This document shows positions 11,008 through 46,936 of a DNA stretch of 51,533 nt, in pieces (the stretch's first letter is position 1; every line of letters starts with the position of its first letter). Made by a program: the position numbers and the translations under genes. Location: NCBI GenBank assembly GCA_027313705.1, contig DAHVDE010000098.1, positions 1-51,533 of the forward strand, written 5' to 3'. The DNA is from Actinomycetota bacterium (GTDB lineage: Bacteria; Actinomycetota; Actinomycetes; Streptosporangiales; Streptosporangiaceae). Under the pieces are notes generated by a model that was not told where the DNA came from, searched no databases, and worked only from the letters and a program-made list of their open reading frames with translations.

Positions 11008-11133
11008 ATGGACCCGGATGACACCTTACTTCCGGACGTCCCTGAACTCGGGAATCCTGATGATCTTCGGGTCGAGAACTTTTCCGATGACACGCCGATG
11101 CTCGATCACTCCATCATCGGCAACGGTGAGTGA
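11008..11133 (+). CDS. 41-residue acidic peptide at the head of the nucleoside cluster
   Basis: A strong RBS (GAAGGAAGG, 10992-11000) precedes ATG 11008 with ideal spacing, and the ORF ends at TGA 11131-11133. The product begins MDPDDTLLPDVPELGNPDD and ends in DHSIIGNGE. It has nine Asp and three Glu against one Arg and one His, with no Cys and no Lys. It lies 53 bases upstream of the first carbamoyltransferase gene, on the same strand, and is probably co-transcribed. I do not recognise a family. Possibilities are a RiPP-type or carrier peptide (the C-terminal Glu recalls amino-group carrier proteins, without their other features), a small regulatory protein, or a leader peptide. The RBS and spacing make translation likely; the function is unknown. 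Confidence 0.6.
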   Translation: MDPDDTLLPDVPELGNPDDLRVENFSDDTPMLDHSIIGNGE

Positions 11134-11186
11134 TCAATTCTCCCCAGTAAACTTTTGATGAACTAAAGTCAGGTGGTTGACTTAGA

Positions 11187-12767
11187 ATGTTGATTGTGGC
11201 GGTCAAGCCGGGGCATGATGGAGCGGTTGCGGTGCTGGATAATCGGCATCTAAAGTTCTCTCTTGAGTCAGAGAAGGATTCGTATGTCCGGCACAAAGCA
11301 TTAACCGTGGAAACATTATTGACGGTTTCGGAACGTCTCGACGCTGTTCCCGACGTGATCGCCATGGGGGGATGGCAAGGTGCCGGTGGCCTCTTCGGTC
11401 GACCGATCGGTCAGGGATACCATGGTGCTGATCGGGCGACGATTCGTAGCGCTCGGCTATTTGGAAGGAATATAGACCTATTTTCTTCTTCGCACGAACG
11501 TTCCCACATCATGATGGCCTTGGGTATGGCGCCTGCTCACGATGCTGCGGCCGAGGCAGTGCTGGTATGGGAAGGGATTATAGGAGCTTTTTATTACATA
11601 AACCATGTTGAGGCAACTAGGCGTCCTATTCCAGTTCTGACCTACCCCGGAGTCAGATATGGACTAGCCTATACTATCGCCGATCCCCGTCTCCCCGATA
11701 GCGCTGGTGCGCCGCTTGACGGCGCAGGCAAACTGATGGCATTGGCTGCATACGGCGATCCCAAGGCAGCGAACAGCGAGATTCATCAAATCGTCGACCG
11801 CTTGCTCGCCCCGCAGCCGCCGTTACTTAAGCGTCAGTTCGCGGATACGATCTTGTACAACGCCGGCGTAGAGTCGGAGGTCTGCAAGGTTACCGCAGCC
11901 CTTCTTACTGAACGTATGTTCAAATTGTTCGCCACGGCTGCGGAAAAGAAACTACCAGCTGGCCTCCCCTTGCGGATCTCCGGCGGATGCGGTCTCAATT
12001 GCGACTGGAACTCGATGTGGCGGGCGCTCGAACACTTCGACACGGTATTTGTCCCTCCTTGCACGAACGACGCCGGTTCGGCGCTTGGCACGGCAATCGA
12101 TGCCCTGGGCTATATCACGGGCAATCCGCAGATCGACTGGAACGTCTATGGAGGACTGGAGTTCGAAGTGGACACCCAGCCCGACCCTATCGTCTGGATG
12201 CGGCGCCCTCGCGACGCCCAGGCTTTGGCCGCAGCGCTTAGCGACCAGAGAATTGTGGCATGGGTGCAGGGTCGCTGGGAAATAGGACCACGAGCGCTCG
12301 GCCATCGGTCACTGCTGGCAGAACCCTTCGACCCCATGACTAGAGACCGGCTGAACAAGCTGAAGCAACGGGAAGGTTACCGCCCGATAGCACCGATCTG
12401 CAGACTCGAAGACGCCTCGACAGCTTTCATCGAGAACTTCCCTGATCCCTATATGCTCTATTTTCGTAAAGTGCGAGATCCGGAATTGCGTGCTGTCACC
12501 CATGTCGACGGCTCCGCACGAGCTCAAACTGTCACAGCTAGCGAGAACCCCGCCATCCACGAACTTCTTACAGCTTTTGCCCGCCGGAACGGCACTGGCG
12601 TCCTCTGCAATACGTCTCTCAATTTCCACGGCTATGGTTTCATTAACCGCATGTCCGACCTCATCCGCTACTGCAACGAGCGCGGCATCGATGACTTCGT
12701 GGTCGATGATAATTGGTACCAACGCCGAGAGACACTCGATCGTTCCGATTCAATCAATGGCGCATAG
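11187..12767 (+). CDS. Carbamoyltransferase, NodU/TobZ/CmcH family (first copy)
   Basis: This 526-residue two-domain carbamoyltransferase would use carbamoyl phosphate and ATP, through a carbamoyl-adenylate, to carbamoylate a hydroxyl or amine. The N-terminal Kae1-like part shows GHDGAVAVL, the metal-binding SSHERSHIMMALGMAP (HxxxH) and GGCGLNCDWN / CTNDAGSALGTAI (metal-binding Asp). The YrdC-like C-terminal part shows EIGPRALGHRSLLAEP, GYRPIAPICR, HVDGSARAQTV and CNTSLNFHGYGFIN. The gene is noticeably richer in A/T than the downstream NRPS genes. It follows the acidic peptide gene. A second paralogue lies at 23338. Its substrate in this cluster (probably a nucleoside OH or NH2) is inference. 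Confidence 0.88.
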   Translation: MLIVAVKPGHDGAVAVLDNRHLKFSLESEKDSYVRHKALTVETLLTVSERLDAVPDVIAMGGWQGAGGLFGRPIGQGYHGADRATIRSARLFGRNIDLFSSSHERSHIMMALGMAPAHDAAAEAVLVWEGIIGAFYYINHVEATRRPIPVLTYPGVRYGLAYTIADPRLPDSAGAPLDGAGKLMALAAYGDPKAANSEIHQIVDRLLAPQPPLLKRQFADTILYNAGVESEVCKVTAALLTERMFKLFATAAEKKLPAGLPLRISGGCGLNCDWNSMWRALEHFDTVFVPPCTNDAGSALGTAIDALGYITGNPQIDWNVYGGLEFEVDTQPDPIVWMRRPRDAQALAAALSDQRIVAWVQGRWEIGPRALGHRSLLAEPFDPMTRDRLNKLKQREGYRPIAPICRLEDASTAFIENFPDPYMLYFRKVRDPELRAVTHVDGSARAQTVTASENPAIHELLTAFARRNGTGVLCNTSLNFHGYGFINRMSDLIRYCNERGIDDFVVDDNWYQRRETLDRSDSINGA

Positions 12768-12822
12768 CTTGAGTTGTTTCGATAAATACAGGTAAGAGCG
12801 ATTTGGCGAGGATGGCATATAG

Positions 12823-13893
12823 GTGGCATCAAACGAGCTAATTTTCAGGTATGCCCTCAAGCGATTTCCATCGGACTTTCGAGTTTCAGAGGTCCTGCTC
12901 CCGGCAGTTGTCGAACCTTCAACAGATAGTTTTCATTATCTTCGACTGACCAAGAGCGGATATACGACTTTCGAGGCGATTGACCTGGTCGCCAGCCATT
13001 TGGGGCTGGCCAGCAGTCAAGTCGGTTACGCGGGTTTAAAGGATGAAGACGCTGTCACCGATCAGTACCTGTCGATCGCCGGGTTCGTTGCGCAGCGCGA
13101 AATCGACCGATTCAATCATCTGTACCTGGCCGGCGGATATCAGTCCGAGGCACCATTCATGCAACTACAGCATCACTGCCACAGCGACCGAGGACTTGAG
13201 GCAGGCGAACTTGACGGTAATAGCTTCAGGATCGTAGTGCGCGATCTTCATGAGGACCGCGCGAACCGCCTTGCCGATGTTAAGAGCAGATACAACTTCT
13301 TCTTTATTAATTACTATGACACCCAAAGATTTGGTGTCCCGCACGGCCCAAAGCAGACTCATCTTATCGGGCAGGCAATCTCCGTTAAGGATTATGCGAC
13401 CGCATTCAGACTGCTGAAATCATCCTGCTCGCCCGAGGCGGCGAAGTGCGCGGAATTCACCGGCACCCCGGAGGACTTCTTTGGCCATCTTGATCAGCGC
13501 CGCGTTGCTTTTTATCTATCGGCGTCCTCCTCTGCTACCTGGAACGAGCAGGTCAGGCAGGGCCTGCGGGACACGAGCACGGGCGGTCTTGTTGAGCTGA
13601 GCCGGGACGGAATTCCTTACTCGTTTCCCAGATCAACGGAAGCAGTACTTGGCTTCCTCGCCCACGGCAGCGCATTTGAATACCACACGTACCGATCACG
13701 GGAGGGACGCGTCTTCTCCTACCCGTCCCGGCGACCTGTGGTGACCCAGACCCAGATGCGAGTCTCTAACGTCCGGCCAGATGACTCGGCACCCGGGCAG
13801 TGGCGTTGCGATATGCAGTTTTTCTTGTCCTCTGGTTGCTACGCGACCATGGCCGTCGCGCAATTCCTGCATCAGATTGAAACAGAGCAATGA
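12823..13893 (+). CDS. TruD-like pseudouridine synthase (C-nucleoside-forming)
   Basis: This 356-residue protein shows TruD-family motifs: FRVSE (residues 19-23, motif I), VGYAGLKDEDAVTDQYLS (67-84) with the predicted nucleophile Asp74, and NYYDTQRFG (TruD NYFGxQRFG motif with Gly changed to Asp). RRVAFYLSASSSATWNEQV matches the helix lining the active site. TruD normally isomerises U13 of tRNA-Glu. TruD-like enzymes are the C-nucleoside-forming step in the pseudouridimycin and malayamycin clusters. Its place between a carbamoyltransferase and a MurA-like gene argues for that role. The start is GTG 12823 with GAGGA 12808-12812. The stop overlaps the next start (ATGA). The coding sequence is AT-richer than its downstream neighbours. 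Confidence 0.9.
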   Translation: MASNELIFRYALKRFPSDFRVSEVLLPAVVEPSTDSFHYLRLTKSGYTTFEAIDLVASHLGLASSQVGYAGLKDEDAVTDQYLSIAGFVAQREIDRFNHLYLAGGYQSEAPFMQLQHHCHSDRGLEAGELDGNSFRIVVRDLHEDRANRLADVKSRYNFFFINYYDTQRFGVPHGPKQTHLIGQAISVKDYATAFRLLKSSCSPEAAKCAEFTGTPEDFFGHLDQRRVAFYLSASSSATWNEQVRQGLRDTSTGGLVELSRDGIPYSFPRSTEAVLGFLAHGSAFEYHTYRSREGRVFSYPSRRPVVTQTQMRVSNVRPDDSAPGQWRCDMQFFLSSGCYATMAVAQFLHQIETEQ

Positions 13894-15287
13894 TGGCAGG
13901 CTCGTGCACCGAAGTCCGCGGCCGCGGCCCCGTTCCCGCCACGGTGACCGTGAACGGCGGGCGCAATTTGTCTGGCCAGGTCCGCGTCGCTGGCTTCAAG
14001 CACGCGCTCGTCACGACCATGGCGGCTGCAGTCGTCGGGCGCGGCCCGGTCACGCTGGAGAACTGCCCGGATATTGAGGAGACGCGCATACTGGCAGCGC
14101 TACTGACGCACATGGGCGCACGCGTCACGATGCGGGGCAGTGTTCTTGAGCTGGACGCGGCTCCGATGCGAACCGGGTTCCTTCAGCCCGCGCTTGTCGG
14201 CCAGATCCACGGCTCGATCTATCTCCTGCCCGGGCTGCTCAGCCGGTTCGGCTCAGTACGGATGCCATTGGCCGGGGGATGCCGGATCGGGGCAGGCCCC
14301 TCAGGCGAGCGGCCGATTCGTCAATATGCCGCAGTTCTGGAGCGGTTCGGTGCGCGTGTCACCATAGCGCCCAGCGGAGCGCTCGACGTTTGCGCTGACC
14401 AACTGCAGGGCTGCGAGATCGACCTGCGAGACTATACCGCTGACCGGACCCGGCGCACCGGGCCGCTGTACTCCGGCGCGACCAAGATGGCCATCTTGAC
14501 CGCAGCAGCCGCGCATGGACGCACCCGACTTCTGCATCCCTACCCCAAGCCTGACGTGACCGAACTGGTTGCCGTCCTCGCGGCAATGGGCTGCGAAGTG
14601 CGTTACGTCTCTGGTCGCGAACTCGTCATTGACAGCGATGGGCCCGCCGCACTCACCCAACCGGTCCGTCATATGCTGGTAACAGACATCATCGAGGTAG
14701 TCACCTGGGCGACGGTGGCTGCTTGCACCGCGAGCGTGCTGCGCCTGTCCGGCTTGACACTGGACCGTCTCGGGACAGGGATCGCACCCGAGTTGAAGGT
14801 CGGGCGCCAGATAGGGCTTGGCTACACCATTGACGGCCCTGACTCGGTGTTGCTGCACCCAGATCCGCCGTGCGCGAGCGCTGACGTCACGGTCTCCTCG
14901 CACGGCGTCTATAGCGACAGTCAGCCATTTCTTACGCTACTCGCTACATTTGCCCCCGGTGTGTCACGGATCCGCGACACGGTATGGACACACCGCTTCT
15001 CCTATGTCGAAGGCCTGAACAAGATGGGCACCTGCATTGATGTCCGCGGGGCCGAGGCGCACGTAACGGGCGGGCGACCACCAAGCCGTTCGCCTGGGAC
15101 AGTGGTCGCCACCGACCTGCGAGCAGCGGCAGTGTTGCTCCTGGCGGCACTACGGGTGCCCGGCACGACGCAAGTGTCCGGTGCCGCGCACCTCAGTCGG
15201 GGTTACGAGGATCTCGTCAGACGACTCAATGCACTGGGCGCCGAGATACACATAGACGAGACGGTCACGGACGGGGGCGCAGCGTGA
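13890..15287 (+). CDS. MurA/NikO-like enolpyruvyltransferase
   Basis: This 465-residue EPT/MurA-fold protein would transfer the enolpyruvyl group of PEP to a hydroxyl. Catalytic positions are kept: Lys37 (GFKHA; MurA has GAKNA, so the Asn is His), Cys131 in LAGGCRIGAGPSGERP, and Asp343 in HGVYSDSQPF. A true cell-wall MurA has a longer conserved Arg-rich loop and would not lie in this operon. In nikkomycin/polyoxin biosynthesis the homologue NikO/PolA attaches enolpyruvate to the 3'-OH of UMP as the first step to octosyl acid. Next to a TruD-like enzyme, the likely acceptor here is pseudouridine monophosphate (inference). It overlaps both neighbours by 4 bp, giving tight translational coupling. 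Confidence 0.88.
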   Translation: MMAGSCTEVRGRGPVPATVTVNGGRNLSGQVRVAGFKHALVTTMAAAVVGRGPVTLENCPDIEETRILAALLTHMGARVTMRGSVLELDAAPMRTGFLQPALVGQIHGSIYLLPGLLSRFGSVRMPLAGGCRIGAGPSGERPIRQYAAVLERFGARVTIAPSGALDVCADQLQGCEIDLRDYTADRTRRTGPLYSGATKMAILTAAAAHGRTRLLHPYPKPDVTELVAVLAAMGCEVRYVSGRELVIDSDGPAALTQPVRHMLVTDIIEVVTWATVAACTASVLRLSGLTLDRLGTGIAPELKVGRQIGLGYTIDGPDSVLLHPDPPCASADVTVSSHGVYSDSQPFLTLLATFAPGVSRIRDTVWTHRFSYVEGLNKMGTCIDVRGAEAHVTGGRPPSRSPGTVVATDLRAAAVLLLAALRVPGTTQVSGAAHLSRGYEDLVRRLNALGAEIHIDETVTDGGAA

Positions 15288-18200
15288 CAGCGAGTCCACC
15301 AGAACTCACGCCATATGCCGAGCCAGCGGAGTTCATACCGGATTGGCAAGCCGAGACTAATTCCGCGCGGCATAGCGAGGCGATCGTGGCTGCCAGCCGC
15401 TGGCGCGCCGACCACCTCGCCCGCCTGGCTGCCTCCCTGAGCACGACCCCGGCGGCAGTTGCGGTAGCTGCAGTACTTGAACTTGTCCGCAGATTCGGCG
15501 CTCCCGACCCAGCCCTGATCGGAGTGCGCCGGGGAAGCGCCGTGACGGCCGTGTCGTGCGTCTGTGGCGCCAATGACTCCTTCCTAACCAGAGTCCGGCA
15601 ACTCTGTGACGCACTGGATCTGGCACATGGCGCCACATCAACTCCCATTGCACCGGTTCGCATTGAGATTGACATAGATTGTCCGGCCAATCCTGAGGGG
15701 CCGCAGCGCCCGGCCTCCGTCCTACTCGGCTACCGCCTAGCCGCTGGCCGGGGAGACCTGGCCGGGGAAAGCCGCAAAGGCCTGGCCGACATGGGCGCGG
15801 GTGACCTGGTAGTGCGCTACGACACTGCCGGTTACGCTGCGCGCAGCATGAGTTCGCTGGCACGCCGCTGGGCCGACATGCTCGACCAGGCGCTCAGAAC
15901 ACCGCAGATAGCGATGGCTGACATAGCTCTTGCGGATGACGTCGCCGAGCCCGCAGGTGGCGGGAGCGCCAGTGCAAGCTATCCCCCTGCGGCAGCTGAG
16001 CGCACCATCGGCCTGGTTCACCACGAATTCCGCGATGTAGCCGGCGCCATGCCGTCCGCGATCGCCGTTATCGACTCGGCCGGCAGCCTCACCTACGCCG
16101 CCATAGACGCCTGGGCCGACATCGTGGCGACCGCGCTGCGCGCGAAAGCGGTTGGCCGGGGCGAGGTCGTCGGTGTGCTGCTGCCGCGCGGCGCGGCAGC
16201 GGTCGCGGCGCTGCTCGGCATCCTGCGGCATGGGGCGATTTACCTGCCGCTTGATCCCGAGACCCCGTTAGAACGGCTCAGTTATCAGACCGCTGACGCT
16301 TCCGCGTGCCTGGTCCTGACAGACGGTCAGGGGCCAGCGGCAGACCTGGCCTGCCCTAGCCTGGCGATGCCAGGCCAAGACCCGCAGCCAGGCCGCGTTC
16401 GGGACCCGCGAGGCAGACCCGCGGATTTCGATCGGGCCGACGATCCCGCTTACATCATCTACACCTCAGGAAGCTCAGGTCGCCCGAAAGGCGTGGTGCT
16501 GCCGCATCGCGGGCTGGCCGCCACGATCGCCGGCGCGCGGCTCCTGCACCGGCTGGATCCCGGGGACCGGATGCTGCATTATGCTTCCCCGTCGTTCGAT
16601 GCCTCCCTGTACGAGATCTTCCTAGCCACCACGTCGGGCGCTACGTTGTGCGCCCCGGCACGCACTGACCATCTAGAGACTTACCTGCGCGAGCATGAGG
16701 TCAACATCGCCTTGCTCGCACCGTCGGTCCTGCGGACGTTGGACCCGGCCCGGCTGCCGAGCTTGCGGCAGGTCATCGCGGCAGGCGAAGCGCTGTCGCT
16801 AGACCTGGCCCGCACCTGGGCCCGCAGCGCCGAACTCATTAATGCCTACGGGCCAACCGAGATGAGCATCGCCACGCACGCAGCGACGATAAGCGCGCAG
16901 GACCGCAGCGTTCGCATCGGCGGCCCATTCCCCGGCGTCAAAACCCTCATCCTAGGTGAACACGATCGCCCGGTACCGGCCGGGATGCCAGGAGAATTGT
17001 GCACCGGGGGTCCAGGCGTTGCCCTCGGATACCTAAACCTGCCGGATCTGACCGCCAGCCGGTTCATCATGAATCCGGCTCTTCCCGGCCAGTTGCTCTA
17101 CCGCACCGGCGACCGGGTGCGCGAGCATCCGGACGGTGGCCTGCAGTTCCTTGGCCGCATAGACGCCCAGGTGAAGCTGCGCGGCTACCGGATCGAGTGC
17201 GGCGAGATCGAGGAACAGCTGTGCCGCCTGCCGTGGGTGCGTGCGGCAGGAGTCGCCGTCACCGGCGGCGAGAAAGCGCGGCTTGAAGCGCACCTGGTGT
17301 TCAAGCCCGGCACATCCGGCCCGTCCGAAGTGCCCGCTGTCGGCGTGTTGCGTGATGCGCTGCGCGGTACTCTGCCCAGCTACATGATTCCCGCTGCCTT
17401 CTGCCGTCATGAAGACCTGCCGCGGCTTCCAAGCGGGAAACTCGACCGGCGCGCCCTCGCCGCCGGATGCGACGGACAGCGACTGGCCGTTGTGCCCAAG
17501 GCTGACGATCCGCTCAATACAGGTCGGGTGCGCGACATGGTGGAGGCGCGCCTGGCCGCGATCTGGTCCTCGCTGCTTGGATTGCCCGACTTCGGCATGA
17601 GACAGAGCTTCTTCGACCTGGGAGGTGACTCTCTCCTTGTCACCACGATGCTGTCCGAAGTCGAGCGGGAACTCAGCTGCCAGGTGCGGCTAGCTGATTT
17701 CTTTGAAGAACCGACACTCGAGGCCATGGGGATCTTGGTGCGGGCCTCGCGTCACCGCAGCGCTAGCTCGGAGGTACTTGTCCCGTTCACGCGCGAGTCG
17801 GCCAGAGCTCCTTTCTTCTGCGTGCATGCCCGCAATGGCGAGGTTTTCTTCCTGCGGGCACTTCGCGACGCCGGCCTGCCTGCCGGGGTCATCGGGATCC
17901 GGGCCGTAGGGCTGGACGGGCACGAGCCGCCGTTGCGCTCGGTCCCTGCGATGGCGCAGCGTTACGCAGCAGAGGTCAGGCAGGCGCAGCCGCGGGGACC
18001 ATATCGGATCGGCGGGTTCTGCGCCGGTGGCGTGATCGCCGCAGAAACGGCCCGCATCCTTCATGAACAGGGTGAACGGGTGGAGGTTCTCGCCCTGTTC
18101 GACGCCGATCCCAGCATTCAGCAGGGTGAAGCCGCACAGGATGAGCAGATAATCGCCGAACGGCTAGCGCGAATTCGCGAGCTGTACGGCATCTCGGTCC

Positions 18201-20851: not shown

Positions 20852-20864
20852 CTAGAGGAGTCTC

Positions 20865-22217
20865 ATGTCCGCCGATCAGCCAGCAAGCGCCGCAGGTCGG
20901 CGGGTGCTCGTCATCTGGCCACCGCAAGTTCTCAGCTATTTCAACGCTGGGCATCACATCGGCCTGTACCTGACCGCTGCCTACCTCCGCCGCCAGCCAG
21001 CGATTGAGGCTGTCACGGTCATCGACGCGTCGATGCCGGGCTACACCTGGAAGGACATCGGGGATGTCCTCTACCAGGGCGACTTCGATGCCATCGCGGT
21101 CATGAACGATCTGGACGGCATCGACGGCCTCGCCCGCTTCCTAATCTACGCGCGCCGACTGAGTCCCCGGTCGATTATAGTGACCTTTGGCCGACTCAGC
21201 GGCGTCAACCCGGGGTTCTTTTTCAGCTACGATCTTGACGCCGTTGTGCATAGCGGCGATTATGAGCCAGGCGTTGCGGCCGCTTTCGATGCGCTAGCGG
21301 GGGGGCGCACTCAGGTTCCCGGCGTCTACTTGCGTGTCGATGACGACTGGCACTCGCCTGCGGAACCAGGGGCCTTCCTTCCGGCGGCGAAATGGGAGCT
21401 GCCCGATGTGTCAGAGATTCCTTATGCCGACTACGACGTGCTGTACAGGCGTGACGAGAACAAGTTCTGCGGCATTCCGTTCCGCCGCGAGCTTGTCGTC
21501 CCGGCGAGCCGCGGCTGCCCGGTCGGGTGCGCGTACTGCGAGGTGCCAGGCGTTTTCGGACGCCGCGACCGCAGGCTCGCCGTGGACCGGGTCGTCACGT
21601 ACATTGAGGAGTGCTTCGGACGTCAGCCATTCGAGTACGTGGCCTTCTATTCGCCGACCTTCACGCTGGACCGAGCCTGGACGATGGATCTGTGCCAGGA
21701 GCTCATTAAGCGCGGTTCCAGCTATCCCTGGAAGTGCGCCACCACGACGCATCACCTGGACCAGGAACTTGTCGCGGCGATGGGCCAGAGCGGGTGCGTG
21801 CGCGTGAGCGTGGGTTTAGAGACGCTCGACGAAGGCGGGGCCGTCGCGCTGCCGCGCATCAAGCGCGACGTTGACCGCCAGTTGGCGGATCTGGCGGCCT
21901 GGTCGGCCAAGGCTGGCCTAGAGCTCAACTGCTTCATCATCGTCGGCCTGCCCGGCACCACGATAGAGGGCGCGCGCCGCACCATCGCCAGGGTGAGGGA
22001 GCTTGGGGCCAGGGTTAGGCCCACCATGTACTCCCCCATCGAACTGATGCGGCCGGAGATGTCCGCCACCGAAATCGCCCGGTTCAACCGGCAGCTACTT
22101 GTCGACGGCACGTGCTCATTCACCGATGCGGAAACCCGCGGCGCATACGGCCTCATCTTCGGCCACGAGCCGACCCTGACTCAGGTTTTCACCAAGATCC
22201 CGGAGCGCCGAGCATGA
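20865..22217 (+). CDS. Radical SAM enzyme with B12-binding-like N-terminus (octosyl-acid synthase candidate)
   Basis: This is a 450-residue protein. Residues 12-145 have the fold pattern of the cobalamin-binding-type N-terminal domain (VLVIWPPQ, then HIGLYLTAAYLRR), but without a clear DxHxxG. The radical SAM core has CPVGCAYC (Cys218, Cys222, Cys225), plus VSVGLETLDEGG and FIIVGLPGTT. Start ATG 20865 has GAGGAG just upstream. The enolpyruvyl-nucleotide made by NikO/PolA-type enzymes is cyclised by the radical SAM enzymes NikJ/PolH to octosyl acid phosphate. Beside a NikO-like gene this protein is the natural candidate for that C-C bond formation (inference). Methylation or another radical step is the alternative. 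The stop overlaps the next start (ATGA). Confidence 0.82.
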   Translation: MSADQPASAAGRRVLVIWPPQVLSYFNAGHHIGLYLTAAYLRRQPAIEAVTVIDASMPGYTWKDIGDVLYQGDFDAIAVMNDLDGIDGLARFLIYARRLSPRSIIVTFGRLSGVNPGFFFSYDLDAVVHSGDYEPGVAAAFDALAGGRTQVPGVYLRVDDDWHSPAEPGAFLPAAKWELPDVSEIPYADYDVLYRRDENKFCGIPFRRELVVPASRGCPVGCAYCEVPGVFGRRDRRLAVDRVVTYIEECFGRQPFEYVAFYSPTFTLDRAWTMDLCQELIKRGSSYPWKCATTTHHLDQELVAAMGQSGCVRVSVGLETLDEGGAVALPRIKRDVDRQLADLAAWSAKAGLELNCFIIVGLPGTTIEGARRTIARVRELGARVRPTMYSPIELMRPEMSATEIARFNRQLLVDGTCSFTDAETRGAYGLIFGHEPTLTQVFTKIPERRA

Positions 22218-23341
22218 CCATCACAGAGCCTGCGAGTTCCGTCATTCCCGGCCTCTGCCTGCCGCCCGTCCCAGGCGCGCAGGCGGTGCGCAGGCACGTG
22301 CGGACGCGGCGGCCTGGCGAGGTGAATCTGAAGAGCTGTGAACTGCTTCATCCGGAAGTGGATGCCCTGCACGCGGGTCTGCTCCGGGCGATCGATCCGG
22401 GGGACGTGGTTTTCTACCCTCTGTACCAGAGCACGCTTGACCAGGTCGGCGCTCACCTTGGGGTGCCCTCCGACCGCATCCTGATCAGCGCGGGCAGCGA
22501 TAGTGCGATCGCGCTGCTCATCACGGCTTTTGCCAGAGGTGGCCGGCTCGTGATCCACAATCCCTCGTATGAGGGCTGGCAGAGGTATGCCGCGCTGAAT
22601 GGCACGGCGATCGACTTCGTCACACCGGACGCGGACGGTGAGCCTGCCGTCTGCGATCTGTTGCGAGCGGTCACAGCGGGGCCGCCCGCGATGGTCGTGC
22701 TCACCCAGCCGCACAGTCCGACCGGGCGGGTGTTCGATGGCGATGAGATCGCACGGCTCTCCGCCGCTGTGGCCAAGCACGGCAGCTTGCTCGTGCTAGA
22801 TACCTGCTACCTCGCCTTCTCCGAATCTGGAGAGCAGACCGTGCGCGAGGTCGCGCTTGCGCCCCACGTGGTGCGGGTGAACAGTTTCTCCAAGGCCTTC
22901 GGCGTCGCCGGCGCGCGGCTTGCGGCCGTAGTCGCTGATCCGCGACTTGAGGGTTACCTGGCGCGGTGGCAGCCAGAAGGCGCGGTCTCGGGGGTCAGCC
23001 TGGCGTTGCTGCGCGGAGCGTTGTCGTCGGTCACGCTGTTCCAGGGGATATGGGAGGAACTGCGGGGGGGTCGCCAGCAGTTGGCTGACCGGATCCAGGC
23101 GGACCTACCGGGCTGGCATGCGCGTCCAAGCGGCGGCAACTTCGTTGCTTTCGATGTGCCGACGGCCGCTGAGGCCGGCGCAGCTTACAGCCACCTGCTT
23201 GAGCACGGCATCAGAACCCGCGACCTGTCCGGGCTGCCCGGCCTAACGGCCGCGCTCCGGATTGGACTGGCCGCCACCCCGATCCTTGACCAGGTCGCCA
23301 GGACCATGGCCCGCTTCGCCGACCTTCGGCAGACGGCATGA
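22214..23341 (+). CDS. Fold-type I PLP aminotransferase (HisC/AspC-like)
   Basis: This 375-residue class I/II aminotransferase has the PLP lysine Lys227 in NSFSKAFGVAGARLA. The cofactor-binding VLDTCY has Asp196, and TQPHSPTG is the variant of the usual NPxNPTG motif. NPSYEGWQRY corresponds to the substrate-side segment. The ATG 22214 start overlaps the radical SAM stop. In nikkomycin/polyoxin pathways an aminotransferase (NikK/PolI) installs the sugar amine after oxidation. A matching role here would create the amine that a carbamoyltransferase could convert to a ureido group, as in malayamycin or ezomycin. That link is inference. Confidence 0.85.
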   Translation: MTITEPASSVIPGLCLPPVPGAQAVRRHVRTRRPGEVNLKSCELLHPEVDALHAGLLRAIDPGDVVFYPLYQSTLDQVGAHLGVPSDRILISAGSDSAIALLITAFARGGRLVIHNPSYEGWQRYAALNGTAIDFVTPDADGEPAVCDLLRAVTAGPPAMVVLTQPHSPTGRVFDGDEIARLSAAVAKHGSLLVLDTCYLAFSESGEQTVREVALAPHVVRVNSFSKAFGVAGARLAAVVADPRLEGYLARWQPEGAVSGVSLALLRGALSSVTLFQGIWEELRGGRQQLADRIQADLPGWHARPSGGNFVAFDVPTAAEAGAAYSHLLEHGIRTRDLSGLPGLTAALRIGLAATPILDQVARTMARFADLRQTA

Positions 23342-24813
23342 GCCGAGCCCTGGTCGGCGTCAGCTGCCTGTCACATGACGCCGCTCTCGCCGCAGTTACC
23401 GAAGATGGAATCCAGTTCGCCGCACATGCGGAGCGGTACAGCAGGCGTAAGAATGACCCGCTGCTGCACCAAGCGCTAATCGAAGACGCGGCCAGATACT
23501 GGGGACATCCCGGTGAGCTGGCGTTCTACGAGCGTCCGTGGCTCAAGCGCTCCCGGCAGCTGTACGCGGGCCAGTACCGGCGAGCACTGGTCGATCCGCG
23601 CCCGGCCGCTTATCTGCGCGGTTTCGAGCCACTGCGGGACCTGCCGATCTTCTATGTGGATCATCACCTGTCGCATGCCGCAGGCGGTTATTTCACCTCA
23701 CCTTTTCGCGAGGCCGCCGTGGTGGTTGTCGATGCAATCGGCGAATGGGACACCATCACCGTCTGGCATGGGCGCGACCGGGTACTGAGGCGCATCTTCT
23801 CGACCCGGTACCCGCACAGCGTCGGACTGTTTTATTCCGCGTTCACCCACCGGGCCGGACTGAAGCCGAACGAAGAAGAGTACATCTTCATGGGTATGGC
23901 CGCTTACGGCGAGCCACGTTACCGTGCCCTCATAGAGAATGAGATCGTCCAGCTCGGCCCCCCGCCCCAGTTCCGGCTCCGCCGCCCACTTCATCGCGGT
24001 CTGCGCGGCTGGCGACAGGAGATAGTAGACGGACCGGACATCGCTGCCAGCGTACAAGCAATCACCGAGGCATACCTCACCTCGCTGCTGCGCTGGACCG
24101 CCCAGACCGTCGGCTCACGCCATCTTGTGTACTCGGGCGGCGTGGCCTTGAACTGCTCCTTCAACGGCCTACTGGCGGGCATGGCCTTGTTCGATGACAT
24201 CTGGATCATGCCGAACCCAGGCGATGCCGGGTCGGCGCTAGGAGCTGCGCTCGCCCAGCTGCGTGAGTTCGTACCCTGGCCTGGCCCCTATCTCGGGTAC
24301 GACATCGACCGTCCGCTCGATACCAGCGCCGTCGCGCGAACGCTGGCTACTCAGGGGACTGCCGGGCTGGCGAACGGCAGGGCCGAGTACGGGCCAAGGG
24401 CGCTCGGCAACAGGAGCTTGCTTGCCGATCCGCGGGGCATGGCGATGAAAGAACGCGTCAACGCCATCAAGCGACGGCAACGGTATCGCCCTTTCGCGCC
24501 TGTCGTCTTGCGCGAGCAGGCGGCTGAGCTATTCAACATGCCACCTGTCGATGCTCCGTACATGCAATACGTCGTGCCGTGCCGCAAGCCTGATGAATAC
24601 CCGGCCATCTGCCATGTCGATGGATCAAGCCGGGTGCAGACACTGACTCGTGAGCAAAATCCGCAGCTGCACGCGATACTGGTCGAGTTCCAGAAGCTGA
24701 CCGGCTGCCCGATGCTACTCAACACCAGCCTCAACATTAAAGGTGAGCCTTTGGTCAACACCTGGGACGACGCACTCAATTTCGCCGCTCTGCACAATGT
24801 TCCCGTGTTCTAA
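23338..24813 (+). CDS. Carbamoyltransferase, NodU/TobZ/CmcH family (second copy)
   Basis: This 491-residue protein has the full set of family motifs: CLSHDAALAAV, VDHHLSHAAGGYFTSPF (HxxxH metal site), LVYSGGVALNCSFN, MPNPGDAGSALGAAL, EYGPRALGNRSLLADP, RYRPFAPVVLREQ, HVDGSSRVQTL and LNTSLNIKGEPLVNT. It is clearly a different lineage from the copy at 11187, being GC-rich and canonical in the N-terminal domain. Two carbamoyltransferases imply two carbamoylation sites or two acceptors (for example a ureido nitrogen and a carbamate oxygen). The start ATG 23338 overlaps the aminotransferase stop, which hints that it acts on the amine made by that enzyme. The stop overlaps the MFS start (TAATG). Confidence 0.9.
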   Translation: MSRALVGVSCLSHDAALAAVTEDGIQFAAHAERYSRRKNDPLLHQALIEDAARYWGHPGELAFYERPWLKRSRQLYAGQYRRALVDPRPAAYLRGFEPLRDLPIFYVDHHLSHAAGGYFTSPFREAAVVVVDAIGEWDTITVWHGRDRVLRRIFSTRYPHSVGLFYSAFTHRAGLKPNEEEYIFMGMAAYGEPRYRALIENEIVQLGPPPQFRLRRPLHRGLRGWRQEIVDGPDIAASVQAITEAYLTSLLRWTAQTVGSRHLVYSGGVALNCSFNGLLAGMALFDDIWIMPNPGDAGSALGAALAQLREFVPWPGPYLGYDIDRPLDTSAVARTLATQGTAGLANGRAEYGPRALGNRSLLADPRGMAMKERVNAIKRRQRYRPFAPVVLREQAAELFNMPPVDAPYMQYVVPCRKPDEYPAICHVDGSSRVQTLTREQNPQLHAILVEFQKLTGCPMLLNTSLNIKGEPLVNTWDDALNFAALHNVPVF

Positions 24814-26084
24814 TGGTCAGATCTGCTGAGGTCTCGGCACGCCGCTCGCTGACAGGCGTGCTGCACGAGTTGCCAGGCCCGGCGCGAATGCTCGTCGCGG
24901 CGAACTTCGTGAGCGCCGTTGGCAACGGTCTGACTCTGCCCTACCTTGCCGTCTACCTGTCCCGAGTGCTCCATTTCGGCATCCTGACCGGTACGCTGGC
25001 CGTGACCGTCGTGGCCGCCGCATCGCTGGCGGGCGGCCTCATCGCCGGTCACCTGTCCGATGCCTGGAACCGGCGCGGAGCCGCGATCATGACACTGGCG
25101 GCCGGCTCGGCCGGATCAGTGTTGCTCGCGTTCACCCACGACGTGTTCATGGCCATGGTCGGTGCCGCGATCTACGGGCTGGGCATGGGTGGGATCTCCT
25201 CATATTACGCGTACTTTGTCACGAGCGTTTCTTCTGAGCGACGGCAAACTCTTCTCGGCCTCAATTTCGGCGTCATGAATGCGGGAATCGGCCTTGGAAC
25301 GCTGATTTCCTCGTCTGTCGTCGATGTTCACCACGCCGGCACGTTCCGCGTGCTGTACGGCAGTGACGCCTTCTCATTCATCGTGATAGCCATTGCCGTG
25401 CTGTGGGTTTCTCCCGGGACGCGGCTGCCTGGTGACGCCTCCGCCCCGGACAGAACGGCGGGCGCTGGGGCAGTCGCCGGCTACCTGGCAGTACTTCGAG
25501 ACCGTCGGCTGCTGGCGCTCGTCGGTTTCTCCGGCATCGTGACGGCGGCAAGCTACGGCCAGGTGTCGGCATCGCTGCCCATCCTGGCGACCGGCCCGGC
25601 CCGAGTGTCGGCTCGAGTGCTGGGCCTGATGTTCCTGCTGAACACCGTGATCGTCGTCGTTGCTCAGATGAGCTGGCTGCGGCGCGACAGACGAGACCCG
25701 AGCCGCCGGACTCTGGTTGCGGCCTGCCTGCTCTGGGCAGCGTCATGGCTTTGCGTCACCGCTGGTGCCTGGGGCGCCGCTGCAAGCAGTTGGGCCGGGG
25801 CAGCTGGACTGGCAGTCGGCATCGCCCTGTTCGCGCTAGCCGAGCCTCGCTTCGGACCGGTTGTCGCGACTGCAGTTAACGACCTGGCACCACAGGCGGC
25901 ACGCGGACGATACAACTCGATCTACGGCTTGTCCACCTCGTCAGGTTTCTTGCTAGGGCCCGTTCTGGCGGCGGGGCTGCTACCGGTTCTGCAATCCGGA
26001 TTCGGGCTGCTGCCGGCTGGTCTGTGCCTCTGCGCTGGGCTCGCCGTGCACCGCCTGCCGCTAGGAAATGGGGCCAAGTCGTGA
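24813..26084 (+). CDS. MFS exporter of the nucleoside cluster
   Basis: This 423-residue membrane protein has about 12 hydrophobic segments. The MFS cytoplasmic loop pattern follows TM2 (AGHLSDAWNRRGAAIM, matching GxLaDrxGRr) and the chain ends in a short basic tail. It belongs to the drug-proton antiporter type of MFS. The ATG overlaps the upstream stop (TAATG), so it is translated with the biosynthetic genes. It is the only transporter in the cluster and is the likely export and self-protection route for the product. Confidence 0.85.
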   Translation: MVRSAEVSARRSLTGVLHELPGPARMLVAANFVSAVGNGLTLPYLAVYLSRVLHFGILTGTLAVTVVAAASLAGGLIAGHLSDAWNRRGAAIMTLAAGSAGSVLLAFTHDVFMAMVGAAIYGLGMGGISSYYAYFVTSVSSERRQTLLGLNFGVMNAGIGLGTLISSSVVDVHHAGTFRVLYGSDAFSFIVIAIAVLWVSPGTRLPGDASAPDRTAGAGAVAGYLAVLRDRRLLALVGFSGIVTAASYGQVSASLPILATGPARVSARVLGLMFLLNTVIVVVAQMSWLRRDRRDPSRRTLVAACLLWAASWLCVTAGAWGAAASSWAGAAGLAVGIALFALAEPRFGPVVATAVNDLAPQAARGRYNSIYGLSTSSGFLLGPVLAAGLLPVLQSGFGLLPAGLCLCAGLAVHRLPLGNGAKS

Positions 26085-26833
26085 CAGCGGCGCGATCACG
26101 GGACTTCCCCGGTATGCCCAACGTCAGGGATCTGGCAAATCTGCGCGGTCCAGATCAGGATTGGGTCCGGGCCGGCATGCTCTTCCGCGGACCAGCGCCC
26201 GTAATCGCGTCATCGGATCTCAGCCGGCTCAGATTGCGCACGGTGATCGATCTCCGCACCCCCACGGAGCGTTCCCTCGCGCCCTTGGCCGGCGGCGCGA
26301 CGACGATCCTGACGCTCGTGCGACCGATGCACGCCGATGCTCCCTGGCTGGCACGGGGCCAGCGGCCGGTCCCCAGCCAGTACCTGGCCAACTATCGTGA
26401 GCTGCTGCCTCAGGCCGGGACTGTTGTCGTGGAGATGCTCGAACTGCTGGCGGCTGGTGGAGCGACACCCGTTCTCGTTTGCTGCTCAGCCGGCAAGGAC
26501 CGCACCGGAGTGGTGTGCGCGCTGCTGCTACGGGCGCTGGGGGTCAAGCTAGCCGATATCTGCCGCGACTACGCCCTGACCGCTCGCATCCTGCGCCGAG
26601 TCGGGCCTGATGATGCAGGCACCTGGAGTGCCGGGCTCTCACCCGCGGAGTTTGCCCCGCGCGTGGAGACACTCGCGGCGACGATGCGAAAGTTGCTCGC
26701 TGGCGTGGAAGGTAATCATGGCCAGACACTCGGTTATCTGGGCCGATTCGGGCTGACAGCCAGGGTAGCCGCCCAAGCGCGCCTGCGGCTGATGGTTTCC
26801 CAGCCCACCCGTTATGAACGAAATCAGGGATGA
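26081..26833 (+). CDS. Tyrosine-phosphatase-like enzyme (NikL/PolJ-type)
   Basis: This 250-residue protein of the PTP/Y_phosphatase3 superfamily has the signature loop CCSAGKDRTGV (nucleophile Cys135, Arg141; the usual preceding His is Cys). The general-acid region lies upstream, and an N-terminal NVRDLANL / MLFRGPAP segment (N.RD.G..R, LYRS..) is typical of the family. In polyoxin/nikkomycin pathways a homologous phosphatase removes a phosphate from octosyl acid intermediates. With the P-loop kinase at 28418 it could form the kinase/phosphatase pair of a cryptic phosphorylation strategy. GTG 26081 overlaps the MFS stop by 4 bp. Confidence 0.85.
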   Translation: MTAARSRDFPGMPNVRDLANLRGPDQDWVRAGMLFRGPAPVIASSDLSRLRLRTVIDLRTPTERSLAPLAGGATTILTLVRPMHADAPWLARGQRPVPSQYLANYRELLPQAGTVVVEMLELLAAGGATPVLVCCSAGKDRTGVVCALLLRALGVKLADICRDYALTARILRRVGPDDAGTWSAGLSPAEFAPRVETLAATMRKLLAGVEGNHGQTLGYLGRFGLTARVAAQARLRLMVSQPTRYERNQG

Positions 26834-26839
26834 CCCGCT

Positions 26840-27730
26840 ATGTATGTGTATGCCAATGGTTGTTCGTTCACATATGGTTCTGAGTTGCACGATGACCCGC
26901 AGACCCGGATTTGCACCAACAACTCCTACAGATGGGAACATAGCTGGCCGGGCGCGCTAACCCGGCTGCTCGGTGTCAGCGGAGCAGGGGCCTACAACGA
27001 CGCGACGCCAAGCGGCTCCAACGATCGGATCACCCGGACCACGGTCCAGTTCGTGCTGCGCAATTGGCAAGCCGCCGACCTGCCGGCCGAACAGCTGCTG
27101 GTGGTAATCGGCTGGTCCCACCCCGCCAGGCGCGAGTTCTTTGTCGACGGAGCATTCCGCCAGGTCGTGCCGCACCACGGGTACGACATCCGCGCGCTCG
27201 ACCGGCTGGCTCGCGTCTACCGCCAGGTGGCGTGGGATGACACAGAGTCGAGGTGGCGTTTCGCCACCCAGGCGCTCACCCTCGCCTCATTCCTCAGGGA
27301 CCTAGGCATAAGGTTCGTCTTCTTCGACGCGATCGAACCTAACCGGCTGCCGGACGAACTCGCGGACGACCCCGCCGTCCCTGGCTTGCTAGGGGGGGAC
27401 AGTTGGATACGCGGCAGCGACGACCTATCCATGGCCCGGGTGCTGCGCGCAGACCCGAGTAACTGGACCGGCCAGCACCCGTCAGAGACCGGGCACGCTG
27501 CCTGGGCGGCGTTGCTCGCGCAGCGGCTCGGCACTGACCTGCCTGCCGGGCCGCCGGCCAGCACTCTGAAAGCCGCCGGCCTGCCGCAGCTTGGCGGCAC
27601 CAGAGCGGTTCAGCGGCACGACGTCAAGGAGGGCAATTTGACCGGAATGCGGCCGTTGATCCAGCATGCGGCTCCGCTGCGACGTCGTATCGCAAGCGCG
27701 GTACAGCGTGATCCCTTTCTCTATCCGTGA
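26840..27730 (+). CDS. SGNH-hydrolase-like protein
   Basis: This 296-residue protein starts MYVYANGCSFTYGSEL, where Ser9 sits like the GDS-type nucleophile of SGNH esterases/acyltransferases. SGSNDRITR (Asn/Asp region) and QHPSETGHAAWAALLA (the C-terminal catalytic His block) follow. The set suggests an esterase, deacylase or O-acyltransferase, although block II Gly is not obvious. The start ATG 26840 lies six bases after the phosphatase stop. It could act with the built-in acyltransferase or NRPS thioesterase to add or remove acyl or aminoacyl groups. It is a poorly characterised family and I do not assign a reaction. Confidence 0.6.
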   Translation: MYVYANGCSFTYGSELHDDPQTRICTNNSYRWEHSWPGALTRLLGVSGAGAYNDATPSGSNDRITRTTVQFVLRNWQAADLPAEQLLVVIGWSHPARREFFVDGAFRQVVPHHGYDIRALDRLARVYRQVAWDDTESRWRFATQALTLASFLRDLGIRFVFFDAIEPNRLPDELADDPAVPGLLGGDSWIRGSDDLSMARVLRADPSNWTGQHPSETGHAAWAALLAQRLGTDLPAGPPASTLKAAGLPQLGGTRAVQRHDVKEGNLTGMRPLIQHAAPLRRRIASAVQRDPFLYP

Positions 27731-27773
27731 CCACCCACCCGCACTGCCCTACGACCATGACTTGTGAGGCACC

Positions 27774-28421
27774 GTGTCCACATTGATCGACCTCGACGCT
27801 ATCCGCGGCACGACCGTCAAGGATGAGCCCTACCGGTACGCAGTCATGACCGAAACCTTCCGCAACCCTGAGACCTCGCGGCAGCTCAGGGAGCAATTCC
27901 CCCAGGAGAATTTCTCCTTGTCTGAACGGCTCGACAAGCGGGCGAGTCAAAAGCGCTACCGAACCTATGACTATCAACTCGTCTTGCACGACAAGCGCGA
28001 TGAATCGCGGATCGCCTCGTTGACCCCGTTGTGGCGGCAACTGGTAGACGAGGTGACCGGCACCGCCTACCGGGATGCGCTCGCGGAACTGACAAGCAGC
28101 GATCTGGGCTGCCTTCAGCTAGAGGCACGGCTGACCCGGTATTCCCCTGGATGCTGGATTGAGCCGCACACCGACCGCGCCGACAAGGTGGTCACCCATC
28201 TGATGTATTTTAATGAGCCCTGGCGAACGGAATGGCTTGGCGACTTCCGGGTGCTGCGCAGCTCGGACATGGAGGACTATGCTGAACGTGTTCCTCCTCA
28301 TCTGGGCACCTCCGTCGTGATGGTTCGGTCGGAACGGTCCTGGCACGGAGTACCACCGGTGCAGGCCGACATTCCGCAGGCCCGTATGACCTTGCTCGTC
28401 CACTTCGCAACCGGGGCATGA
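27774..28421 (+). CDS. 2-oxoglutarate/Fe(II)-dependent oxygenase
   Basis: This 215-residue enzyme has the facial triad His132-x-Asp134 (IEPHTDRADK) and His191 (SWHGVPP), plus Arg204 (PQARMTL) in the 2OG-carboxylate position. This is the P4H/phytanoyl-like cupin layout. GTG 27774 has a purine-rich RBS (TGTGAGG). 2OG oxygenases act on octosyl acid-type intermediates in nikkomycin/polyoxin assembly (hydroxylation, oxidation or chain shortening). Here it may prepare a ketone or alcohol for the aminotransferase or carbamoyltransferase. The stop overlaps the kinase start (ATGA). Confidence 0.85.
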   Translation: MSTLIDLDAIRGTTVKDEPYRYAVMTETFRNPETSRQLREQFPQENFSLSERLDKRASQKRYRTYDYQLVLHDKRDESRIASLTPLWRQLVDEVTGTAYRDALAELTSSDLGCLQLEARLTRYSPGCWIEPHTDRADKVVTHLMYFNEPWRTEWLGDFRVLRSSDMEDYAERVPPHLGTSVVMVRSERSWHGVPPVQADIPQARMTLLVHFATGA

Positions 28422-29023
28422 CCGCGGTGGCTCAGCTTCGTCGTGTGATCGTCGGCGGAATCACTGGAGCGGGCAAGACCACTCTTGCCCGACGCATCGC
28501 GACGCTCCGCGGACTCACCCACGTGGAACTCGATAGCATGTACCACGGCCCGGACTGGCAACCAAGGCCAGAGTTCGACGCCGACGCCGACGCCGCTACG
28601 CGCGGAGACGAGTGGGTGGTCGACAGTACTGGCTATCCCTCCGTGATGGACATGCTGTGGTCCCGGGCAGACACTTTGGTCTGGCTCGATCTACCGCGGC
28701 ATGAGGTGATGCGCCGGGTGGTGATCCGCTCGGTGCGCCGAACCTGGCACCGCGAACGGCTGTGGAACGGCAACCGTGAAACGCTGCGGTCTTGGCTGTC
28801 GCCCGAGCACCCGGTTCCCTGGGCATGGCGACACCACTGCCTGCGTCGCCGCCAGATCAGGGACCGGCTCACTCAGCCAGTCGCCTCTCACCTCCATGTC
28901 ATTCATCTCACATCGGCTCGTGAAGCCGAAGCCTGGCTGCGGGATCTCGATCAGTCGTCCCGAAGCCCGGCCAAAGGAGACCGAGAGCAGTCCGCTATAA
29001 AAGCCTGGCCAGATCCAAGCTGA
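28418..29023 (+). CDS. P-loop kinase (small-molecule/nucleotide kinase-like)
   Basis: This 201-residue protein has Walker A GGITGAGKTTLARR (Lys20, Thr21) and an acidic substrate-side segment HVELDSMYHGPDW. DTLVWLDLPRHEVMRRVV follows, then a basic lid (RRTWHRERLWNG). It resembles adenylate-kinase-like or topology-modulation (FlaR-like) P-loop proteins of about 180-200 residues. In the polyoxin/nikkomycin pathways a kinase that phosphorylates the nucleoside is part of a cryptic phosphorylation scheme; this gene is the candidate for that role. It is the last plus-strand gene of the run, 30 bases from the convergent LLM gene. Confidence 0.72.
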   Translation: MTAVAQLRRVIVGGITGAGKTTLARRIATLRGLTHVELDSMYHGPDWQPRPEFDADADAATRGDEWVVDSTGYPSVMDMLWSRADTLVWLDLPRHEVMRRVVIRSVRRTWHRERLWNGNRETLRSWLSPEHPVPWAWRHHCLRRRQIRDRLTQPVASHLHVIHLTSAREAEAWLRDLDQSSRSPAKGDREQSAIKAWPDPS

Positions 29024-44529: not shown

Positions 44530-45999
<1,470 letters not shown>

Positions 46000-46842: not shown

Positions 46843-46862
46843 CATTCCAGTTTAAGTGCGCA

Positions 46863-46899
46863 TAGTGGCTGTGCGGTATCTGATGCCGCACAGCCACTA
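46863..46899 (+). terminator. 14-bp perfect inverted repeat between peptide and E1 gene
   Basis: TAGTGGCTGTGCGG (46863-46876) and CCGCACAGCCACTA (46886-46899) form a 14-bp perfect stem with a 9-base loop, followed by CTTGATATTTCC. In microcin C operons a terminator-like hairpin between the precursor and the adenylyltransferase gene keeps peptide mRNA in excess. This element sits in the same place. It could be an attenuator or an mRNA-stabilising end. Confidence 0.65.
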
Positions 46900-46936
46900 C
46901 TTGATATTTCCAGGGCGCCAGAAAGGTGAATGGCAT

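Follow-up and report, generated by a model that had tools for sequence, protein, structure and literature searches.

We analysed a stretch of DNA of 51,533 nucleotides from an actinobacterium of the family Streptosporangiaceae (contig DAHVDE010000098.1, hereafter the window), in which 14 co-directional genes on the + strand (11187-29023) form one operon that includes a TruD-like enzyme, a MurA-fold enolpyruvyltransferase (EPT), a radical S-adenosylmethionine (SAM) enzyme and two carbamoyltransferases (CarbA and CarbB). Judging from the sequences, the probable product of this operon is a malayamycin-like octosyl C-nucleoside that is carbamoylated and exported; our estimate was set after the radical SAM identities and the independence of the motif-bearing rows described below had proved somewhat weaker than first thought. 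The window holds a candidate gene for each step known from the polyoxin/malayamycin mechanism. The core chemistry is already known, and its decoration by extra genes is the new part. Nikkomycin and polyoxin, which inhibit chitin synthase, are products of octosyl acid pathways, as is malayamycin, described as active on plant-pathogenic fungi in a review (PMC8724604).

Proposed pathway

The TruD-like enzyme would convert uridine monophosphate (UMP), or another uridine nucleotide, to pseudouridine-5'-monophosphate (pseudouridine-MP). A NikO/MalO-type enzyme would then transfer enolpyruvate from phosphoenolpyruvate onto the 3'-hydroxyl, and a NikJ/PolH/MalJ-type radical SAM enzyme would abstract the 5'-hydrogen and close the second ring to give octosyl acid 5'-phosphate. 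This route from UMP through pseudouridine-MP and its 3'-enolpyruvyl ether to the octosyl bicycle had been put forward in an earlier, sequence-only reading of the window, and it is still the best reading of the sequences. Kinase and protein-tyrosine-phosphatase (PTP)-like phosphatase would provide the cryptic phosphorylation and dephosphorylation seen in nikkomycin and polyoxin, the single 2-oxoglutarate (2OG) oxygenase and the pyridoxal phosphate (PLP) aminotransferase would place an amino group on the octosyl part, and CarbB, perhaps with the DUF6071 protein, would carbamoylate this amino-octosyl part to a ureido or carbamate group. The major facilitator superfamily (MFS) transporter would export the product. 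Least certain is the probable addition of an aminoacyl group by the adenylation-thiolation-thioesterase (A-T-TE) protein and the acyltransferase-carrier fusion.

The steps have precedents. In the sections available of PMC5365060, PolH and PolJ convert 3'-enolpyruvyl-UMP in vitro to octosyl acid phosphate, followed by dephosphorylation. PMC10127198, as far as its accessible part goes, states cryptic phosphorylation for nikkomycin, polyoxin and malayamycin, and reports that a pseudouridimycin enzyme accepts the non-phosphorylated substrate. For malayamycin, the same review excerpt proposes polyoxin-like enzyme logic acting on pseudouridine-MP (PMC8724604).

The TruD-like enzyme is set apart from housekeeping TruD

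The TruD-like protein carries the motif GLKDE with Asp74. Its PF01142 match spans only profile positions 18-202 of 412, and it scores 121.4 bits on TIGR00094 (tRNA pseudouridine-13 synthase), under the cut-off of 172.2. A structure model computed from an alignment of 17 sequences (predicted local distance difference test, pLDDT, 89.5) has the TruD/PUS7 fold, matching human PUS7 (5kkp) with Z 22.9 and E. coli TruD (1si7) with Z 21.1 (256 residues, root-mean-square deviation 2.9). In a tree of 20 rows, a branch supported at 100/100 parts 18 rows that include the window from two TruDs of housekeeping type, which come from Aquabacterium and from a Xenorhabdus genome having both kinds. GLKDED is present in all 18 of these rows, against GLKDR in the housekeeping-type rows. 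Similarly, 15 of the 18, window included, read NYYDTQRFG where the two housekeeping-type TruDs read NYFGxQRFG, the exceptions being NYYGSQRFG (Legionella), NYFDTQRFG (Lachnospiraceae) and NYYDLQRFG (Gloeothece). Thirteen of the 18 rows were retrieved by patterns holding GLKDED or the stretch before NYY, so that the motif is circular for those; the rows independent of the motif scan are the window, Sinosporangium, Mesorhizobium, Gloeothece and Streptomyces G711, the last found by profile. A housekeeping TruD identity was rejected, since the protein stays under the TIGR00094 cut-off and lies on the opposite side of the 100/100 branch. By its sequence, it is very likely a C-nucleoside-type synthase.

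The gene is also rare. Among 394 genomes of the class, PF01142 turned up in the window's own alone, and no second TruD was found there; two of 60 relatives and two of 297 family genomes have a TruD, in each case the own genome and Sinosporangium (Streptosporangiaceae). Given this rarity in the class, the coupling of a TruD-like gene to a NikO-type gene is not chance.

The enolpyruvyltransferase is of NikO/MalO type

The best solved match of the EPT is NikO (4fqd) at 353.5 bits, the best MurA reaching 164.2 bits, and its motifs GGCRIG (Cys131) and YSDSQ (Asp343) align with those of NikO. On TIGR01072 (murA) it scores 250.8-251.2 bits and does not pass the cut-off of 392.7. The cut-off is passed by another gene of the genome, on contig C17 (448 bits); a third, weak match on contig C68 (50 bits) is presumably AroA. 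Because the genome has a separate, genuine MurA, the cluster EPT is not required for the cell wall. Thus, with NikO a far better match, the murA cut-off missed and a separate MurA present, we rejected the identity of the EPT as a true MurA. On sequence grounds it is of NikO/MalO type, for which a preference for pseudouridine-MP is predicted at most.

The radical SAM enzyme and the lineage of the octosyl module

A search of 392 Streptomyces genomes with the radical SAM alignment at E 1e-60 matched four (G771, G841, G853 and, most weakly, G1038); the first three were read and G1038 was left out of the reading. The TruD alignment likewise matched four of the 392: G655, G656 and G660, which correspond to loci L007, L008 and L021, and G711, which has TruD and a kinase within 40 kb, without EPT or radical SAM gene. 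No octosyl locus with TruD was found among the matches in these 392 genomes, and the malayamycin (mal) cluster itself was not recovered. TruD was not found for G771, G841 and G853, which are absent from the four TruD matches and of which 32-34 kb were read; this assumes that both searches used the same draw of 392 genomes, which seems so.

The window's radical SAM enzyme is 58-59% identical to those of G841 and G853, 56-58% to those of Longimycelium and Sinosporangium, 53% to that of G771, 49% to that of Mesorhizobium and 40-45% to those of Xenorhabdus and Legionella. It is thus 53-59% identical to the enzymes of five actinobacterial octosyl-type loci, all of which also have an EPT, and its NikJ/PolH/MalJ type is assigned via these loci, not by the NikJ, PolH or MalJ sequences themselves. 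AprD4 was its sole solved-structure match. The sequence-only reading had named a TruD acting only on tRNA, a true UDP-GlcNAc enzyme and a radical SAM enzyme of an unrelated pathway as findings that would contradict it. In the sequences, the TruD is not of housekeeping type, MurA is a separate gene and the radical SAM enzyme matches octosyl loci. These matches, together with the 100/100 TruD branch and the NikO score (353 versus 164 bits for MurA), support its assignment of the three enzymes to C-nucleoside and octosyl chemistry.

In a radical SAM tree of 13 rows, the window joins G841/G853 (95/94), and Longimycelium with Sinosporangium joins G771 (95/97). The TruD-bearing loci do not form one side of any branch, and the starred branches force at least two changes; a count as low was obtained in 71 of 500 shuffles of the TruD labels. 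The EPT tree by itself does not force the TruD-bearing loci apart. Long branches meet in both trees, the set contains no mal sequence and the root is unknown; L015, L020, L022 and L009, a duplicate of the Sinosporangium stretch, were omitted. Whether TruD was gained twice, lost twice, or gained once and lost once cannot be told from these trees, because the EPT tree is permissive, 71 of 500 shuffles do as well, the branches are long, no mal row is present and the root is unknown.

Towards G841/G853 the identities are 43% for the EPT, 49-50% for the kinase and 47% each for the aminotransferase and the PTP-like phosphatase. We therefore considered whether the operon might be a nikkomycin/polyoxin-type cluster with an N-nucleoside as its main product, to which the TruD-like gene and CarbA were later added to yield a side product or nothing. 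The sister position of the radical SAM enzyme to loci where no TruD was found, and five more enzymes closest to the same loci, are in keeping with this. So is base composition: GC3 (G+C content at third codon positions) is 0.60 for CarbA and 0.62 for the TruD-like gene versus 0.71-0.79 in the 12 downstream genes, and G+C drops to 0.567 at 12-14 kb of the window. Because of this lower GC3, the composition suggests that CarbA and the TruD-like gene arrived separately from the rest of the operon. Yet the TruD-like gene overlaps the EPT gene by 4 bases and its catalytic motif is intact, and a coupling of TruD to EPT is what a C-nucleoside pathway would lead one to expect, MalO being described as acting almost only on pseudouridine-MP in the accessible part of PMC8724604. 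We consider an N-nucleoside main product quite unlikely.

Several observations nevertheless weigh against an octosyl C-nucleoside of the malayamycin kind. EPT, PTP-like phosphatase, kinase, 2OG oxygenase and aminotransferase all have their nearest matches in nikkomycin-like loci without TruD, so that it is the TruD-like gene that carries the C-nucleoside claim. In the EPT tree the position of the window is not resolved, and among the C-nucleoside-type rows of the TruD tree its placement has no support. One query (E up to 0.001) detected a single 2OG oxygenase of the family in the genome. The mal enzymes were compared through the description in the partly available review (PMC8724604), not by sequence. 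Finally, the window is the entire contig C10 of a 5.31 Mb assembly in 118 contigs with 4.28% estimated contamination; its composition agrees with two other contigs of the assembly (tetranucleotide correlation 0.962-0.990), a weak test in which Sinosporangium fits nearly as well in places (0.925-0.960).

Organisation of the operon

The 14 genes are listed in Table 1. Nine of the 13 junctions overlap by 1-37 bases, the other four being gaps of 55, 13, 6 and 43 bases; the starts at 18505, 20183, 22214 and 26081 were chosen by us, and the junction counts depend on them. The start of the 18505-20196 gene is uncertain, at TTG 18505 or at 18568. Over the Pfam cut-off are both carbamoyltransferases, TruD, the EPSP/MurA fold, the A, T and TE domains, PAP2, radical SAM, aminotransferase, MFS, tyrosine phosphatase-like, DUF6071 and 2OG oxygenase families. 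The P-loop kinase and the hexapeptide acyltransferase part fall below it, the latter backed by solved acetyltransferases that match the first part of the protein. All catalytic motifs searched for are present (TruD-like, EPT, radical SAM, PTP, PLP, 2OG and kinase P-loop). One overlapping operon holding TruD-like, MurA-fold and radical SAM genes with their companions was thus confirmed; of the limits first given, 29023 stands as the end, and 11008 lies about 180 bp before the first gene. A Pfam search found no methyltransferase family among the 14 genes; a methyltransferase gene lies outside the operon on the other strand (39049-39708).

Table 1 Genes of the operon, with positions in the window
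Product	Position	Strand	Evidence and remarks
CarbA, carbamoyltransferase, 526 amino acids, divergent	11187..12767	+	Pfam Carbam_trans_C 7e-54, Carbam_trans_N 4e-20; GC3 0.60
TruD-like, putative C-nucleoside synthase	12823..13893	+	PF01142 6e-39; Asp74
NikO/MalO-type 3'-enolpyruvyltransferase	13890..15287	+	NikO 4fqd 1.4e-104; best MurA 3.7e-47; Cys131, Asp343
Non-ribosomal peptide synthetase (NRPS), A-T-TE	15284..18541	+	Pfam AMP-binding, PP-binding, Thioesterase
Left-handed beta-helix acyltransferase + carrier protein (GVGSL) + C-terminal orphan domain	18505..20196	+	PP-binding over, Hexapep under cut-off
PAP2 phosphatase	20183..20851	+	PF01569 1.7e-19; start picked by codon score
Radical SAM enzyme, putatively NikJ/PolH/MalJ-type	20865..22217	+	PF04055; C218xxxC222xxC225
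PLP aminotransferase, putatively NikK/PolI/MalK-like	22214..23341	+	PF00155 4e-36; SFSK motif
CarbB, carbamoyltransferase	23338..24813	+	Pfam Carbam_trans_N and Carbam_trans_C
MFS transporter, probably exporter	24813..26084	+	PF07690 3e-27
PTP-like phosphatase, putatively PolJ/MalL-like	26081..26833	+	PF13350 2e-38; CSAGKDR
DUF6071 protein, perhaps partner of CarbB	26840..27730	+	PF19547 1.5e-37
2OG-Fe(II) oxygenase	27774..28421	+	PF13640 1.5e-9; HTD motif
P-loop kinase, putatively PolQ2/MalE/PumH-like	28418..29023	+	NCBIfam PRK08118 1e-18, under its cut-off

Tailoring genes

CarbA retains the motif HERSH; the Asp that we take to be the next metal ligand reads, by eye, as Glu. All 12 solved matches align best within the C-terminal half of CarbA. 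Among the other TruD-bearing octosyl loci, as far as they were read, its sole matches are Mesorhizobium and Legionella carbamoyltransferases (30-36%). CarbB shares 56% identity with its counterpart in the octosyl locus of Mesorhizobium, where a DUF6071 homologue stands beside the carbamoyltransferase gene (46% identity over 164 residues, 37% over the length). A weak homologue (28%, E 8e-6) also adjoins a carbamoyltransferase on a Streptomyces goshikiensis plasmid, no nucleoside genes being annotated nearby. Because DUF6071 is found beside a carbamoyltransferase in both, it may assist carbamoylation. On the S. goshikiensis plasmid (L056, 8556-10720) the two genes overlap by 4 bases and are perhaps a functional pair.

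Two 2OG oxygenase copies each occur in Xenorhabdus, Longimycelium, Sinosporangium (the second copy about 10 kb away) and G771, and one in Legionella; a 2OG tree did not settle the position of the window copy.

No condensation domain was recognised in the first 239 amino acids of the NRPS (best E 0.35), and its thioesterase motif reads GFCAGG, with Cys where Ser is usual. The C-terminal domain of the 18505-20196 protein, earlier called a fused ligase, drew no match from Pfam, NCBIfam or PDB sequences, and that name could not be confirmed. Searches for relatives of this orphan domain gave none in plasmids and one in 296 genomes of the class, the own genome (0 of 295 others). Its structure model (pLDDT 35.7) is too poor for use. 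By eye, GVGVDR and CAHRRE resemble what we take to be class II synthetase motifs 3 and 2, a lead only.

NRPS, acyltransferase-carrier and PAP2 genes are contiguous, and nothing matching them turned up in the parts read of the other TruD-bearing octosyl loci. This would fit two interleaved units, one for the octosyl C-nucleoside and the other, at 15284-20851, a small NRPS/acyl-carrier set unrelated to it, a view that shares the scaffold proposed here and denies only the aminoacyl step. However, the block sits inside the operon, overlapping the EPT gene by 4 bases and ending 13 bases from the radical SAM gene, and the nikkomycin-like locus G853 also has an A-T protein. Two separate units are unlikely. 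In G853, a P450, a thioesterase and an MbtH-A-T protein lie about 9 kb before the octosyl genes, which we take to be the nikkomycin histidine branch; the term nikkomycin-like refers to NikQ, NikP1 and NikP2.

A bolder proposal is that the product belongs to a new class, octosyl C-nucleosides bearing an aminoacyl or peptidyl group. Here, a nikkomycin-lineage octosyl module would have been re-plumbed onto pseudouridine by the TruD-like enzyme, independently of the Longimycelium/Sinosporangium lineage, and an amino acid would be added through the carrier route of the NRPS A-T-TE protein and the fused acyltransferase-carrier-putative orphan ligase. We hold this tentatively, as a possibility with the odds somewhat against it.

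Separately, a 1075-codon open frame in G853 (L051/L052 joined, 18455-21682) matches MFS, kinase and EPT, an apparent three-part fusion; in G841, the matches to these three likewise lie in one frame.

Comparison with known systems

The name MalD may stand for the TruD-like enzyme of the mal cluster; the review gives it to the carbamoyltransferase (PMC8724604), and we rely on neither. Records of the cluster named in the literature are KJ493330 and MH537786. The combination of TruD-like enzyme, MalO and MalJ is described together for malayamycin in that review (PMC8724604). Thus, contrary to the sequence-only reading, the combination had been reported before, and NikO/NikJ-type enzymes are not confined to nikkomycin and polyoxin; the differences in gene content lie in the tailoring, the core being that of malayamycin.

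We asked whether the product might be malayamycin A itself (mal; Streptomyces malaysiensis, S. chromofuscus) or a trivial analogue. Within the review's accessible account, the two share the core enzymes (TruD-like, MalO, MalJ), phosphatase MalL, aminotransferase MalK, a 2OG oxygenase, a carbamoyltransferase and kinase MalE. However, the window's operon has no O-methyltransferase (MalF in mal), and its genome yielded one 2OG oxygenase where mal has two (MalI, MalM). Moreover, the NRPS, acyltransferase-carrier fusion, PAP2, second carbamoyltransferase and DUF6071 genes go beyond that account, which does not include the list of 20 open reading frames. Malayamycin A as the product is very unlikely.

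With nikkomycin and polyoxin (NikO/PolA, NikJ/PolH, PolJ, PolQ2) the window shares the octosyl module, NikO being the best solved EPT match. It differs from the nikkomycin-like loci G841/G853, for which no TruD-like gene was found, in having one that overlaps the EPT gene. To the pseudouridimycin type (PumJ, PumH; L007, L008, L021) it is related by its TruD-like enzyme (41-44%) and its kinase (39-41% to the TruD-adjacent kinases of these loci), but no such EPT or radical SAM gene lies within 10 kb flanks of the three, whereas the window has both. A kinase is present in all three, two also having an MFS match; L021 comes from Streptomyces albus, which is among the named pseudouridimycin producers. 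Ezomycins include C-nucleoside members and carry an attached amino acid. They are bicyclic octosyl nucleosides named alongside malayamycin in the available part of PMC5365060, and no comparable cluster turned up in the ezomycin biosynthesis literature searched. The kinases PumH, PolQ2 and MalE are given as 42% identical in the sections available of PMC7955054.

Distribution of the gene set

Genomes of named species were scanned with a TruD alignment of two rows. The scan, which needs short exact motifs and so misses relatives, gave 17 loci. Nine have TruD, radical SAM and EPT genes together: Longimycelium, Sinosporangium, five Xenorhabdus and two Legionella contigs from metagenome-assembled genomes (MAGs), in one of which the EPT is cut by the contig end. 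The other eight lack radical SAM and EPT genes in the fetched stretches (three Streptomyces, a Rhodobacteraceae contig, Plastoroseomonas and three Lachnospiraceae). Among viral contigs, 98 stretches fit the motif pattern and none encodes a relative.

The five Xenorhabdus species (L010, 8526-18638; L011-L013, L018) have a compact TruD-radical SAM-2OG-2OG-EPT-aminotransferase-phosphatase-kinase operon. In L010, the one locus tested, an arginine:glycine amidinotransferase-like gene precedes TruD (1e-80) and an MFS gene lies behind. The amino group introduced by the aminotransferase would receive a carbamoyl cap in the window and an amidino cap in L010. The Legionella contigs (L014, 5660-14838; L015) have EPT, radical SAM, TruD, phosphatase, 2OG, P-loop and carbamoyltransferase genes and no aminotransferase match; in L014, a CmlA-type diiron hydroxylase gene stands between radical SAM and TruD.

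Mesorhizobium plasmids form a separate collection, found by tblastn. Plasmid p_3 of the root-nodule isolate M. huakuii (L048, 8658-19389) has an octosyl C-nucleoside gene set within 11 kb (TruD, radical SAM, 2OG, EPT, phosphatase, aminotransferase, carbamoyltransferase, DUF6071 and kinase), its EPT and DUF6071 being in pieces in different frames. A TruD-like protein was also matched on an M. loti plasmid.

The C-nucleoside octosyl version is thus spread over two phyla (the window, Longimycelium and Sinosporangium; Xenorhabdus, Mesorhizobium and the Legionella MAGs), with different nitrogen-transfer genes: carbamoyltransferases in the window, an amidinotransferase in the Xenorhabdus locus tested. 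These loci offer several enzyme sets for asking how often the switch between N- and C-nucleoside occurred and at what cost to downstream enzymes. The accessible part of PMC7955054 reports PumJ homologues in diverse, unrelated microorganisms, which means that a wide occurrence of TruD-like genes was already known; further clusters with six conserved polyoxin genes exist according to the sections available of PMC5365060. No description of the Xenorhabdus, Mesorhizobium or Streptosporangiaceae octosyl loci was found in literature titles and abstracts, a partial coverage with subscription papers outside it.

Two further TruD contexts were seen. Lachnospiraceae MAGs (L017, L020, L022) have a C-nucleoside-type TruD, with no octosyl genes matched in the fetched stretch. 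On the conjugative cyanobacterial Gloeothece plasmid Cy782202 (L057, 7980-9784), a GLKDED-type TruD stands beside histidine phosphatase, glycosyltransferase and sulfotransferase genes.

Other genes on the contig

Outside the operon, the window encodes two luciferase-like oxidoreductases (29054-30082 and 39689-40570, both on the - strand), the first of which matches F420-type luciferase-like monooxygenase (LLM) families and ends 30 bp from the operon in convergent orientation. A radical SAM/SPASM protein of another kind lies at 31522-32664 (-), and a beta-eliminating lyase family protein, presumably of tryptophanase or tyrosine phenol-lyase type, at 44530-45942 (-). At 46856-49332 (+), a ThiF-family protein with a weak PqqD-like match (E 0.16) is followed by an MFS gene, a possible second small cluster.

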